A stretch of DNA of 59,229 nucleotides from an uncultured Opitutales bacterium (GTDB lineage Bacteria > Verrucomicrobiota > Verrucomicrobiia > Opitutales > Seribacteraceae), in contig CAJQKB010000133.1 of assembly GCA_905478775.1 (NCBI GenBank), forward strand, positions 1 to 59,229, read 5' to 3'. The notes under the pieces were generated by a model. It saw only the letters and a program-made list of their open reading frames with translations. It was not told the origin of the DNA and made no database searches. Every line of letters starts with the position of its first letter. Position 1 is the stretch's first letter. Both the position numbers and the translations under genes were made by a program. This document shows positions 54,823-59,229 of this stretch, in pieces.

Positions 54823-57128
54823 ATTTCTTATCCGTTTCAATGAGGGGATGTACCTGTGCATTTCTTTTCTTTTTTGCATTCACTAATGTCGGGGCGGTTT
54901 CTTTTCGCCTCTCTTCTCCGGAGGTAATTAAGGCCAGCTGGAATGCACGGACTTTTCTTTGTGAGGATTTGAATGCGGACGGTCTTAACGACCTCCTCTT
55001 TTTTAATCTAGACCGTTCGCGAATTGAAATTCTCTACCGTACTGCGAACGGAAAAACTCCTCCCCGAGTTAGCCCAGTTCAGGCGGATCGTTGGAATCCC
55101 GACTTGGAGGATGCTCCTTATAAAAAGGAATATATTTTTGTACCTGAAAAAATAACTGTATTGGCAGTAGGTGATCTCAATGGGGATGGTCTACTAGATG
55201 TGATCCAGGGTAGTCCTGAAAACGGTGTGCAAGTTTATTTCCGTACCGAAAATTTAAAGTGGGAAGATCCCTATGAGGTAGAATCTGGAAAGCTCCGTTC
55301 TGGTATGTTTTCGATCAAGATTAAAAACGGAAAAGAGCCAGGTCGTTCTACACTTTATCTTTTCACTGAACCGGGACTTGAAGTCATTAATTTTAAAAAA
55401 GGCGAACCAAAATACCCTTCAAAACTTTTTCGGGAAGGAAGTAAAAGTGCACGCGGACTGCATTTGGCCGACTTCGACCACGATGGAGTGGATGACTGGC
55501 TTTACTTAGACCCCACAAAGGAAAGGTCCATTCGTGTGCGCTACGGAGTAAAGGACGGCTATGGCCCCGAGCATTCTTTTGATCTTTCTCTTCTTTCCTT
55601 TAATCCAGTCGACCATTTCCAAGGGAATAAAGAATCTAAATTCGTGGGTATCGACCGGACATCCAGTGAAGTCACCGTCTTTTCGATTAGCCCACAAGAG
55701 GGCGAGGCTGACTTCTCTGATTATGGTGCGGTGAGTCATGACCTTTTTCCCGGGGATGAAAAAAAAGCCGCCTGGGTAATGGAAGATTTTAATTCTGATG
55801 GGAATGTCGACCTGATTGCAGCTTCTCCCAAACTCGGTGAATTCCTTTTTTTACCTGGTGGCACAAACGAGCAGTTTGGTTTACCTCAAAAAAATCCTTC
55901 CCTAAAGGGAATAAGCTCACTTTCGGCCTGCCGGTTTTCTTCCACCAAAAATCCAGGGCTTCTTATTTTGAGTCCGGAAGAGAAAATTGTCGGACTCTCA
56001 GAATTCACAGATAACAAAAGATTTTCTTTTCCCGTTCCTCTTTCCGTGGACGGCGATGCAATTCTCTCCCACTGTTCTGACCTAGATGGAAATGATCGTG
56101 ATGAGATTTTGATCGTGGTCGAGAAAAGATCAGATTTTGTTCTACAAATATGGTCAAAGGAAAATGGAAAGGATTATCAAGTCTCGTCGGAGATTGAACT
56201 GGATGAATGGAAACGCGAACCATCCGCTATCTTTCCCTGTTATTTAAACGAAGATGATCACATCGACCTGGTATTATTGTCCGATCGAGAAGCGGGTCAA
56301 CTTCTGCTCAATAACGGGAAGGGTAAGCTTGAATTAGTGGGAATGGATTCAGCCATTCGTAAGAGTGTGCTTTTTGGAAAAAATCGTTCTCATATAGGCA
56401 GTGGGGAGGTCAATGGCGATCAATCTCCTGAATTGCTTATTGCCGGCGAGGGGATGGTACGTGCACTCAAGTGGAGGGACGGAAATCTGCAAGTGATCGA
56501 ACAATTCAACTCAGTTGATCCAAAGGCTGAACTTGCGTGCCCAATTTTACATGATATCGACGGGGACGGGGAAAAGGAATTGGCTTATTATTCTGGTGAA
56601 AATTGGGTAATTTTAAAGAGACTATCAGATGGAGTTTTTGAAAAGTCTGAAGAAATTGAGGAGGAAACACGTTCCCCTTTGGTTGTCTATTCATTCCCAT
56701 CAAAAAATAAAAAAGGTTTTTACTCATTAAGTACAAGTGGGATTGATGTAATTGGGCAATCACTATCGAATCAGGAATGTCACTTGGAGGTTCATTCGCG
56801 TTATCTGACCGATCTTCCTAAAATTATTCATGGCGGAGTAGATTGGGGAGATTTTAATAATGATGGGAACCTCGACTTGTTATGTATGGACGGTCGGAAG
56901 AATGTGCTCGAGTTTTTGTCTTTTTCCGAGAAAGAAAAAGATTGGGAGAGCGTGCTTCACTTTCAGGTTTTCGAAAAAGACCTTCACTATCGCGGTAAAA
57001 AGGGGGGTGTGAACGAGCCCCGTGATGGATTGATTGCGGACTTGGATGGAGACGGGCGAGATGATCTGGTTCTCTTAGTTCACGATCGTTTTCTGTGTTA
57101 TTATCAAAGCAAGGAAGCTGGAAATTGA
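54819..57128 (+). CDS. Exported FG-GAP/VCBS-repeat beta-propeller protein
   Basis: A 769-residue protein with a signal peptide (CTCAFLFFFAFTNVGA). At least eight FG-GAP/VCBS calcium-loop motifs are visible, near residues 49 (DLNADGLND), 118 (DLNGDGLLD), 219 (DFDHDGVDD), 322 (DFNSDGNVD), 421 (DLDGNDRDE), 577 (DIDGDGEKE), 677 (DFNNDGNLD) and 741 (DLDGDGRDD). These predict one or two integrin-like beta-propellers stabilised by Ca2+. It is probably an envelope or extracellular binding protein. It is translationally coupled at both ends (ATGA upstream, TTGA downstream). Confidence 0.87.
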   Translation: MNFLSVSMRGCTCAFLFFFAFTNVGAVSFRLSSPEVIKASWNARTFLCEDLNADGLNDLLFFNLDRSRIEILYRTANGKTPPRVSPVQADRWNPDLEDAPYKKEYIFVPEKITVLAVGDLNGDGLLDVIQGSPENGVQVYFRTENLKWEDPYEVESGKLRSGMFSIKIKNGKEPGRSTLYLFTEPGLEVINFKKGEPKYPSKLFREGSKSARGLHLADFDHDGVDDWLYLDPTKERSIRVRYGVKDGYGPEHSFDLSLLSFNPVDHFQGNKESKFVGIDRTSSEVTVFSISPQEGEADFSDYGAVSHDLFPGDEKKAAWVMEDFNSDGNVDLIAASPKLGEFLFLPGGTNEQFGLPQKNPSLKGISSLSACRFSSTKNPGLLILSPEEKIVGLSEFTDNKRFSFPVPLSVDGDAILSHCSDLDGNDRDEILIVVEKRSDFVLQIWSKENGKDYQVSSEIELDEWKREPSAIFPCYLNEDDHIDLVLLSDREAGQLLLNNGKGKLELVGMDSAIRKSVLFGKNRSHIGSGEVNGDQSPELLIAGEGMVRALKWRDGNLQVIEQFNSVDPKAELACPILHDIDGDGEKELAYYSGENWVILKRLSDGVFEKSEEIEEETRSPLVVYSFPSKNKKGFYSLSTSGIDVIGQSLSNQECHLEVHSRYLTDLPKIIHGGVDWGDFNNDGNLDLLCMDGRKNVLEFLSFSEKEKDWESVLHFQVFEKDLHYRGKKGGVNEPRDGLIADLDGDGRDDLVLLVHDRFLCYYQSKEAGN

Positions 57129-57910
57129 AAATTCTTATTTTAGGAGATATTGTTGGAAGGCCGGGGAGGAAATTTTTGAATGATCAGTTGGCCGGATATA
57201 AAAAAGACAATCAAATTGATCTTATCATTGCCAACGGTGAAAATGCGGCGGGTGGTGCAGGCATCACAGCAAAGACCGCAACGGAAATTCTTGGATCGGG
57301 GGTAAATGCAATCACACTTGGAGATCATGTTTGGGATCAAATGAATTTTAATCGCGAGATCGATCAATTGGATAGAGTTTGTCGTCCGGCAAATTTGCCT
57401 TCTTCTAATCCTGGTCGGGATCGACTCGTTATTTCTGTTAATAATCAACGGATTGGTTTGTTCACCGTACTGGGTAGAACCTTTATGGGACCAAAAGTCA
57501 GTTGTCCTTTCCAAACGGCAGGTCGCTTGGTTGAAGAAATGAAGGCCGATACAGATGCAATCATTGTTGAAATTCATGCCGAAACGACTTCCGAAAAAGA
57601 AGCAATGGGATGGCACCTCGATGGAAAAGTAAGTCTAGTCTTTGGTACCCATACTCATGTTCCGACCGCGGATGGAAGAATTTTAAAAGGGGGTACTGCT
57701 TATCAATCTGATATAGGAATGACTGGGCCAAGAGAATCGGTCTTGGGCCGGGATATTGAGGCGTGCCTCGGAAGGTTTATAGATGGAATGCCCAGGAAGT
57801 GTCCAGTCGCAGATGGCGATGTTGGGATGCAGGGTTGCTTGGTAGAACTGGATATGGACCGCGGATTTCCCCGTTCAATTGAAATCGTTAATTACCGGGT
57901 TGTAATTTAA
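57125..57910 (+). CDS. YmdB-family metallophosphoesterase
   Basis: Cytosolic two-metal phosphoesterase; characterised members hydrolyse 2',3'-cyclic AMP and affect biofilm or RNA turnover. The metal ligands are visible: Asp8 (ILGDIVGRPGR), Glu39-Asn40 (ANGENAAGGAGIT), His68 (LGDHVWD), a His in EIHAETTSEKEAMGWHLDG and the paired His in GTHTHVPTAD. I set the start at a TTG at 57125 overlapping the previous stop as TTGA, preceded by AAGGAAG; it yields the standard N terminus. The 261-residue length is normal. It is the only non-secreted product of this four-gene set. Confidence 0.9.
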   Translation: MKILILGDIVGRPGRKFLNDQLAGYKKDNQIDLIIANGENAAGGAGITAKTATEILGSGVNAITLGDHVWDQMNFNREIDQLDRVCRPANLPSSNPGRDRLVISVNNQRIGLFTVLGRTFMGPKVSCPFQTAGRLVEEMKADTDAIIVEIHAETTSEKEAMGWHLDGKVSLVFGTHTHVPTADGRILKGGTAYQSDIGMTGPRESVLGRDIEACLGRFIDGMPRKCPVADGDVGMQGCLVELDMDRGFPRSIEIVNYRVVI

Positions 57911-57936: not shown

Positions 57937-58524
57937 TTATTCATCCTGCGGCGCAGCAAAAGGATCTGGTTCACTAATTAAGTTACTTTTTTCTTCCTTT
58001 TCCGATTCGCTCGGTTTCACGCTGTCCTGTTGAATCTTTTCTACATCTGTTGGTGGAATAAATCGGTCCAAGTTTTTGTAAACCAGAAACCCGACCACAC
58101 TTAGGGTCGATAGAAATACAAGAATAGCAACTAAAACCATCAGCTTTCCCACTATTCCCATTCCTGCCTTTCCGCCCTTTTTTTCTTCAAAAGACTGAGA
58201 CGAGGAAATTACGCTTTTAGCTGGGCTACTCCTTGGATTGATCTTTTTCGAGTTAGCCGGACTTGCATGGTTGGTGATATTTTTAAGTGCAGAACCATCC
58301 TCAATATTATCCTTCTCAGGAGCCAACGAGGGTAGGGGAGTTTTATTTATTTGTGACCACTCGGGAAGTTGTTTTAACGGTACCCATCCGGATACTCCCT
58401 GATGCCAAGAAAGGTCGTCGGGTTTGAATTCTCCACTACCTACTCTTTTTGCAGCCTCTTCTAAAGACAAGGGACCATGGTCCACCCCATTGGAGGTGAC
58501 ATATAAAGTAAGGGAGGGATTCAT
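57937..58524 (-). CDS. GYF_2-domain membrane protein
   Basis: The N-terminal 55 residues fit the GYF_2/DUF4339 domain (LYVTSNGVDHGPLSLEEAAK followed by WHQGVSGWVPLKQLPEW), a small peptide-binding module common in Planctomycetes and Verrucomicrobia. A Ser/Pro-rich linker leads to one transmembrane helix (VLVAILVFLSTLSVVGFLVY, about residues 129-149) and a short acidic tail. The GYF domain probably faces the cytosol. The gene lies 11 bases after sodN on the same strand, so the two are probably co-transcribed. Length is 195 residues. Confidence 0.85.
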   Translation of the reverse strand: MNPSLTLYVTSNGVDHGPLSLEEAAKRVGSGEFKPDDLSWHQGVSGWVPLKQLPEWSQINKTPLPSLAPEKDNIEDGSALKNITNHASPANSKKINPRSSPAKSVISSSQSFEEKKGGKAGMGIVGKLMVLVAILVFLSTLSVVGFLVYKNLDRFIPPTDVEKIQQDSVKPSESEKEEKSNLISEPDPFAAPQDE

Positions 58525-58535
58525 TGTATTTTACT

Positions 58536-58982
58536 CTACTTCTTTTTTCCTTCGTAGGCTTTATGAAAAGATAAGATAGATGCTTTAAGTGAAGCTGAAG
58601 ACTGCGGATCAATTGTTTGTTTACATTTCATTGCCGCTACTATTACCGAATGTGCCTTGCTTAACTTTTCTTGATATTTCGGATCGGAAGCCTTAATCCG
58701 CTGAGCCATAAAATAATCCGCAATTGTATTCTGTATGGCAGTTGCGTGTGCCTCCTTAGTCGTAATCCAACGGGTTAACTGATTCTGAGATTGAGGATCT
58801 TTTTTTCCGGAAAGCTCATTGATTACCTTTGATGCCTTCTCAATAGTCGATTGATCCTCGAGCATTTGTTCAAAACGATTTTGATCACCATAAATTCCAC
58901 AAGGTACTTGGCAATGCCCTCGCACATAATGAGAAGTAATTGCGGAGAAAAATAGTAAAAGAGAGAAATTTAGTTTCTTCAT
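58536..58982 (-). CDS. sodN: Nickel superoxide dismutase, exported
   Basis: Converts superoxide to oxygen and hydrogen peroxide using a nickel bound by an N-terminal hook. The hook HCQVPCGIY is intact: His23, Cys24 and Cys28 supply the nickel ligands after maturation and Tyr31 is the conserved active-site tyrosine. It is preceded by a Sec-type signal peptide (LNFSLLLFFSAIT) and a possible signal-peptidase site VRG before His23, which would expose the required N-terminal histidine. The remaining helices fit the four-helix bundle. Length is 148 residues, about 126 after cleavage. Location is probably periplasmic. Confidence 0.93.
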   Translation of the reverse strand: MKKLNFSLLLFFSAITSHYVRGHCQVPCGIYGDQNRFEQMLEDQSTIEKASKVINELSGKKDPQSQNQLTRWITTKEAHATAIQNTIADYFMAQRIKASDPKYQEKLSKAHSVIVAAMKCKQTIDPQSSASLKASILSFHKAYEGKKK

Positions 58983-58994
58983 AGTTTATTGTGG

Positions 58995-59023
58995 GTTTTA
59001 GTATTATTAAAATTAAACATCAA
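58995..59023 (-). promoter_or_regulatory. Possible sodN promoter
   Basis: On the minus strand, TTGATG (59018-59023) and TAAAAC (58995-59000) are 17 bases apart, about 12 bases before the sodN start codon. Each hexamer matches the consensus at four of six positions, so this is tentative. Confidence 0.28.
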
Positions 59024-59189: not shown

Positions 59190-59229
59190 GCGGGAGTAGC
59201 TCAGCTGGATAGAGCATCGGTCTTCTAAA
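59190..59229 (+). tRNA. tRNA-Arg (TCT anticodon), cut by the window end
   Basis: The 5' half of a tRNA: acceptor GCGGGAG, T8, D arm GCTCAGCTGGATAGAGC, then the anticodon stem TCGGT and loop CTTCTAA (anticodon TCT). The sequence stops just after the loop, so the 3' half lies outside. A 7-bp inverted repeat (TTAAGCA/TGCTTAA, 59161-59182) precedes it. Confidence 0.88.

Follow-up and report, generated by a model that had tools for sequence, protein, structure and literature searches.

A nickel superoxide dismutase with a Sec-type signal peptide in an uncultured Opitutales bacterium, and a probable SodX-independent route to its nickel hook

The nickel superoxide dismutases (Ni-SODs), among them Streptomyces SodN, require a free N-terminal histidine. 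According to excerpts of PMC3919588, SodX is one route by which this histidine is liberated, and ubiquitin–Ni-SOD fusions, described from marine algae in the available part of PMC6332867, are perhaps another. In the accessible portion of a 2025 study (PMC12537917), the signal peptide of a Ni-SOD together with the His was used as search bait, by which many Ni-SODs were retrieved, and one such signal peptide appears in its Table 1 with the His marked; in that portion we found no discussion of SodX, maturation or the nickel-loading compartment of signal-peptide Ni-SODs. The absence of sodX has elsewhere been raised as a possible sign of a non-functional Ni-SOD in ten cyanobacteria (excerpts of PMC8346466). 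We found no published statement that signal-peptide Ni-SODs lack SodX in the partial texts covered by our search; an earlier description of these enzymes may exist, and we claim no priority. The arrangement itself is widespread and already in print, and its novelty is modest.

Here, we analysed a 59,229-nt stretch of DNA (the window) from an uncultured Opitutales bacterium, the final 1.3 kb of which is occupied by sodN and a gene for a GYF_2-domain membrane protein, both on the minus strand (Table 1). The sodN gene starts with ATG and encodes a 148-aa product, MKKLNFSLLLFFSAITSHYVRG↓HCQVPCGIYGDQ..., in which the His is residue 23. A first-pass annotation, made from the sequence alone, had recognized a Ni-SOD at this place, and its identity, coordinates, strand, leader and 11-base distance from the GYF gene are all borne out by the sequence and by the Sod_Ni family (PF09055), which scores 119.6 bits on the window protein against a gathering score of 25. 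Our preferred reading, which we regard as quite probable, is that this is an exported Ni-SOD, freed at His23 by signal peptidase I, which binds its nickel in the periplasm and matures independently of SodX. At the outer edge of the window (59190–59229), the apparent first half of a tRNA gene can be made out by eye; it is absent from the ARAGORN list because the window edge cuts the gene off.

Table 1. Features at the sodN end of the window
Feature	Position	Strand	Evidence
YmdB-like phosphoesterase gene, convergent to the GYF gene	57095..57910	+	PF13277, E 3.9e-93
GYF_2-domain protein, one membrane segment, 195 aa	57937..58524	-	PF14237, E 1.3e-11
sodN, nickel superoxide dismutase precursor	58536..58982	-	PF09055, E 1.6e-34; predicted fold nearest solved Ni-SODs
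Nickel hook HCQVPCGIY, mature N terminus (precursor residues 23-31)	58890..58916	-	Alignment
Sec-type signal peptide (predicted), residues 1-22, ends V-R-G	58917..58982	-	Hydrophobic core; -1 G, -3 V

The NCBI equivalog model for sodN (TIGR02753) gives the window protein only 39.6 bits, below its cut-off of 90, and three other signal-peptide Ni-SODs likewise remain under it (31.9, 43.8 and 51.8 bits). Since the SodX-type Ni-SOD of Nonomuraea reaches 163.2 bits, the model apparently describes the SodX-type branch. The corresponding SodX model (TIGR02754, cut-off 63.25) is too strict when used alone, because two SodX proteins encoded beside sodN, those of Nonomuraea and Novosphingobium, fall below it at 54.0 and 43.7 bits. 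The NCBI cut-offs thus pass over all four tested signal-peptide Ni-SODs as well as both of these SodX proteins, and annotation that relies on them may under-call both Ni-SOD and SodX.

The leader of the window protein has the properties of a Sec and signal peptidase I substrate: it starts with MKK, contains a hydrophobic core, carries small residues at positions -3 and -1, and has neither a lipobox nor twin arginines. The first-pass annotation had described a Sec-type leader ending in VRG immediately before His-Cys, and this description stands; the same junction recurs in relatives. Sod_Ni is present in 28 of 57 close relatives (own genome counted) and in 62 of 387 genomes sampled across the phylum. 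Among 84 sodN precursors of the phylum, position -1 holds A 59 times, G 23 times, and S and P once each, while -3 is always A, V, L, I or S. No Cys stands in the final four positions of any of these leaders, and RR, KR or RK, which bears on Tat export, occurs in eight leaders; that of the window has none of the three. Start codons were set by rule (an ATG 17–32 residues before the His, with K or R near); a truncated sodN (L028), a hook variant (L087) and two fragments (G197 and G207) were left out of the 84, and two of the phylum loci, L012 and L029, come from one genome. The hook variant (L087:2884-3474) is a Ni-SOD reading IYS↓HCQMPCAIY in place of HCxxPCG, and it also carries a His-rich tail.

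A scan of named genomes yielded at least 571 relatives, of which the best 80 were retained. These were found with an alignment made solely of signal-peptide Ni-SODs, with the hook among the search patterns, and are therefore uninformative on how frequent SodX-type enzymes are. The titles of the best 80 name Verrucomicrobiota, Planctomycetota, Desulfobacterota or Deltaproteobacteria, Nitrospirota, Calditrichota, Gemmatimonadota, Bacteroidota, Hydrogenedentota, Zixibacteria, Latescibacterota and Aminicenantes, in some cases by lower-rank names. In all 80 of these best matches a hydrophobic stretch runs into His-Cys, with A (69), S (9), L (1) or G (1) at -1. We pooled and de-duplicated the two sets into 157 distinct precursors, excluding three of the named loci, in which no ATG lies within the permitted distance (L123, L144 and L146). 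The leader core exceeds 1.7 on the Kyte-Doolittle scale in every one of them, and a relaxed -3/-1 rule is satisfied at the His in 156, although it also passes at +2 (156/157) and +6 (157/157) because Cys is scored as small; under a strict rule these two offsets score 0. The V-R-G site of the window passes the relaxed rule and fails the strict one. At the level of sequence, the recurrence in relatives indicates that the junction between leader and His exceeds chance.

These counts also bear on an unlikely alternative, namely that signal peptidase cuts slightly upstream and a second enzyme, an aminopeptidase or another protease, trims the chain to the His and so finishes the hook. Upstream sites that pass the relaxed rule do exist in some precursors (at -5 in 60 of the 157 and at -4 in 63), and sodN is followed by a zinc peptidase gene (Zn_peptidase_2, PF04298) in 11 of the 21 genomes of the genus that carry sodN. 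However, the fit to the strict rule peaks at the His itself, with 102 of 157 precursors compared to at most 24 at every other offset from -8 to +6. Moreover, no cross-lineage protease neighbour appears among the 40 largest neighbour clusters of 166 sodN loci, and in the window, the interval from sodN to ymdB contains no zinc peptidase gene.

Turning to SodX, the first-pass annotation had pointed out that no sodX is adjacent, which holds: none was found adjoining sodN in the window, and a search of the whole genome with TIGR02754 gave no match at E 0.001. As this genome is rated 95.17% complete, a SodX could have been missed in it. In 80 genomes with a signal-peptide sodN (of 86 besides the own genome), none carried a SodX over the curated cut-off, the best match reaching 31.9 bits. 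Sub-cut-off matches at E 0.001 occurred in 23 of the 80, and also in 4 of 14 control genomes, E. coli included; the 23 are probably other S24/S26-type proteins. Similarly, phmmer found no ORF resembling either of the two SodX proteins in 165 sodN loci, and no relatives of the two SodX-type Ni-SODs were found in phages or viral contigs. Their two loci serve as the contrast for the leader. The SodX-type leaders are 14 or 19 residues long and not hydrophobic, with a maximum nine-residue Kyte-Doolittle hydropathy of 0.07 and 0.69 compared to 2.42 in the window leader, and they too end in A-x-A before the His, so that in this comparison with two contrast loci it is the leader core, not the final residues, that divides both types. 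This is an indication from the sequences that the hydrophobic core marks the protease route, which the -3/-1 rule alone would not do. The Novosphingobium locus (L180) lies outside the 166-locus set because its hook reads PCKIY.

In the reading we prefer, the precursor would be synthesized metal-free in the cytosol and threaded through Sec, after which ordinary signal peptidase I would cut between Gly22 and His23. This single cut would liberate His1 at both its amino terminus and its side chain, and these, together with Cys2 and Cys6, would form the nickel hook; because the signal peptidase cut would itself free His1, no SodX would be needed. Sec substrates cross the membrane unfolded, and the His1 amino terminus is a nickel ligand in Ni-SOD; metal binding must consequently come after cleavage if the protein takes this route. 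Nickel would thus be bound in the periplasm, where the enzyme would remove superoxide alongside a cytosolic Fe/Mn-SOD. That export cleavage might expose the hook, with nickel loaded outside the cytosol, had been suggested in the first-pass annotation, and the leader, the cleavage rule and the undetected SodX across many genomes support it. The gene, its predicted fold, the hook, the leader and the conserved junction come from the analysis itself, as do the negative searches for SodX and Cu/Zn-SOD; we infer the cleavage site, the compartment, nickel as the bound metal and the activity. Counting against this explanation, an oxidizing periplasm could join Cys2 to Cys6 ahead of the arrival of nickel.

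An AlphaFold model of the mature window protein, built on 31 aligned sequences, has a mean pLDDT of 91.1, with hook residues 1–5 disordered (below 50), and its four predicted helices (residues 10–35, 41–70, 81–100 and 104–122) qualify as a four-helix bundle. In Foldseek the top 16 chains are all Ni-SODs, with a best E of only 1.4e-3, and in VIA-align the Ni-SODs reach Z 14.3–14.5 compared to 12.0 for the next, unrelated entry, on a scale where unrelated helical bundles can score about 13–14. Hook residues H1, C2, P5, C6 and G7 do not vary across the 31 aligned mature proteins, which for C2 and C6 has to be read knowing that the 31 were picked with a search pattern containing both. Against this background, it seems improbable, and slightly more so than trimming by a second enzyme, that the exported protein is chiefly something other than a nickel enzyme, with the hook serving as a metal scavenger or being loaded in the periplasm with copper or a different metal. 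Such a role would be in keeping with the weak sequence similarity of the mature protein to solved Ni-SODs (best E 0.057), from which it is remote, and with Ang-1 and Ang-2, exported N-terminal-His domains that were stabilized more by copper than by nickel according to the available part of PMC12537917; however, the hook ligands and the predicted four-helix fold are retained.

The complement of other superoxide dismutases is suggestive in fitting a Ni-SOD that works outside the cytosol. The own genome encodes one Fe/Mn-SOD, without a leader, and gave no match to Cu/Zn-SOD. In the phylum sample, Cu/Zn-SOD is found in none of the 62 sodN genomes and in 16 of the 325 others, which is not significant (Fisher p 0.086), so we do not conclude that sodN excludes it; in one genus (g62), some genomes carry sodN and some Cu/Zn-SOD. 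Replacement of Fe/Mn-SOD by Ni-SOD was likewise rejected, given that Fe/Mn-SOD is present in 39 of the 62 sodN genomes and 182 of the 325 others (p 0.33).

As regards nickel supply, an enzyme loaded outside the cytosol would make an inner-membrane nickel importer unneeded. The own genome has one HupE_UreJ_2 permease (L089:6962-8125, contig C57); close to its gene are a ZnuA-type uptake operon and the genes of a DtxR-like regulator and a TonB receptor. Judged by eye, the leader of the permease apparently ends ALLNG↓HPIPD, a junction of leader and His that resembles those of the exported-His permeases named anglerases in the accessible portion of PMC12537917. Near the permease gene, a second apparent signal peptide runs into a His (PFSFA↓HDEPW) in an ORF with no Pfam match (L089:8739-9746). 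HupE_UreJ_2 occurs in 15 of the 62 sodN genomes compared to 32 of the 325 others, two of the latter being sub-cut-off matches (Fisher p 0.005, uncorrected for kinship). It is enriched, yet it was not found in 47 of the 62 sodN genomes, and we rejected it as a required permease.

The first-pass annotation had also suggested that the GYF_2 membrane protein might take part in delivery and that conservation of the pair should be checked. The domain is clear (PF14237, 44.5 bits over a gathering score of 25.8), and the gene lies downstream of sodN across a gap of 11 bases (58525–58535). Orthologues with 42–100% identity over most of their length were found in 9 of 31 genomes searched; eight of these directly follow sodN, while a contig end interrupts the ninth, so that wherever the neighbour is readable the two genes adjoin, with a spacing of 8–15 bases (8 of 8 genomes). 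Within the genus, the arrangement covers 8 of 21 sodN genomes; in the remaining 13, several of them incomplete, no orthologue was found, and among the sampled loci outside the genus none has a GYF gene beside sodN. Over all, GYF adjoins sodN in 9 of 166 loci, one of which (L171) is the same as the G017 locus in leader and gap. On a poorly resolved tree the adjacency requires three changes, and it may have arisen once. Hydropathy places the membrane segment at residues 130–148; because lysines precede it and an acidic tail follows, the GYF domain is predicted to be cytosolic and to face away from the enzyme. The protein has no Cys at all, and its predicted outer tail has neither His nor Cys. 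Further GYF proteins occur commonly in these genomes, the own genome having six matches with the sodN neighbour included.

Constant though the position of the readable orthologues beside sodN is, a dedicated role in nickel delivery or in anchoring the enzyme is very hard to reconcile with this confinement to part of one genus, the predicted topology, the missing ligands and the abundance of other GYF proteins, and we rejected the GYF protein as a conserved partner; the suggested part in nickel delivery is not supported. The GYF gene is probably a lineage-specific operon neighbour that is not needed for maturation; it may have a role specific to this species group.

The YmdB-like gene, which recurs near sodN in the genus and has a tblastn match in 19 of 29 loci (counting that of the window itself and a genome that contributes two loci), is outside the mechanism. 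One locus (L007) has both the GYF gene and the zinc peptidase, in the order sodN, GYF, peptidase (L007:2508-3218), while 3 of the 21 sodN genomes of the genus have neither after sodN. The 40 largest ORF clusters of the 166 loci hold no conserved neighbour of signal-peptide sodN that crosses lineages: one cluster spanning 105 loci is mostly an antisense frame of sodN itself, and the remaining clusters are lineage-bound or small. In two Phycisphaerae-type loci (L121:374-985 and L148), an ORF that by eye looks rubrerythrin-like lies 22–23 bases upstream of sodN.

The window sodN is one ordinary example of the signal-peptide Ni-SODs. With somewhat better than even confidence, we propose that these form a large exported branch spanning many phyla, which dispenses with SodX, relies on signal peptidase I to expose the hook, takes up its nickel in the envelope with no dedicated factor and fills the periplasmic role that Cu/Zn-SOD has elsewhere. 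If so, some genomes that are positive for sodN and negative for sodX would be fully able to use Ni-SOD. If cleavage and loading proceed as proposed, a two-cysteine nickel hook would assemble, unaided by any known helper, in a usually oxidizing compartment with competing copper, and nickel loading in the envelope would be open to direct test. On the same condition, a missing sodX alone would be no proof of a non-functional Ni-SOD, the possibility raised in the available part of PMC8346466.

Compared with known systems, the window protein shares with Streptomyces SodN (PDB 1t6u and relatives) the four-helix fold, with Z 14.5 and an rmsd of 2.2 over 112–113 residues, as well as the hook HCxxPCGxY, whereas identity in the structural alignments is merely 14–22%. 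It differs from the Streptomyces SodN/SodX pair in having a hydrophobic signal peptide instead of a SodX-type leader, and SodX was not found. Closer in sequence is a plasmid-encoded Ni-SOD of Ilyobacter polytropus (NC_014633.1), with 44.3% identity to the window protein and a leader that reads ...NYLFA↓HCEVPCGIY, although this organism belongs to Fusobacteriota and the neighbours of its gene include pentose-phosphate genes and clpB. The Ni-SOD of Roseiconus lacunae (WP_230780104.1), as given in the accessible portion of PMC12537917, likewise has a signal peptide that runs straight into the His. The algal ubiquitin–Ni-SODs, to judge from the available part of PMC6332867, resemble the window protein in that the N-terminal extension ahead of the Ni-SOD is not a SodX-type leader, but they are eukaryotic and have ubiquitin in place of the Sec signal; by analogy, we infer that their release by a general protease would follow the same idea as the signal peptidase route.
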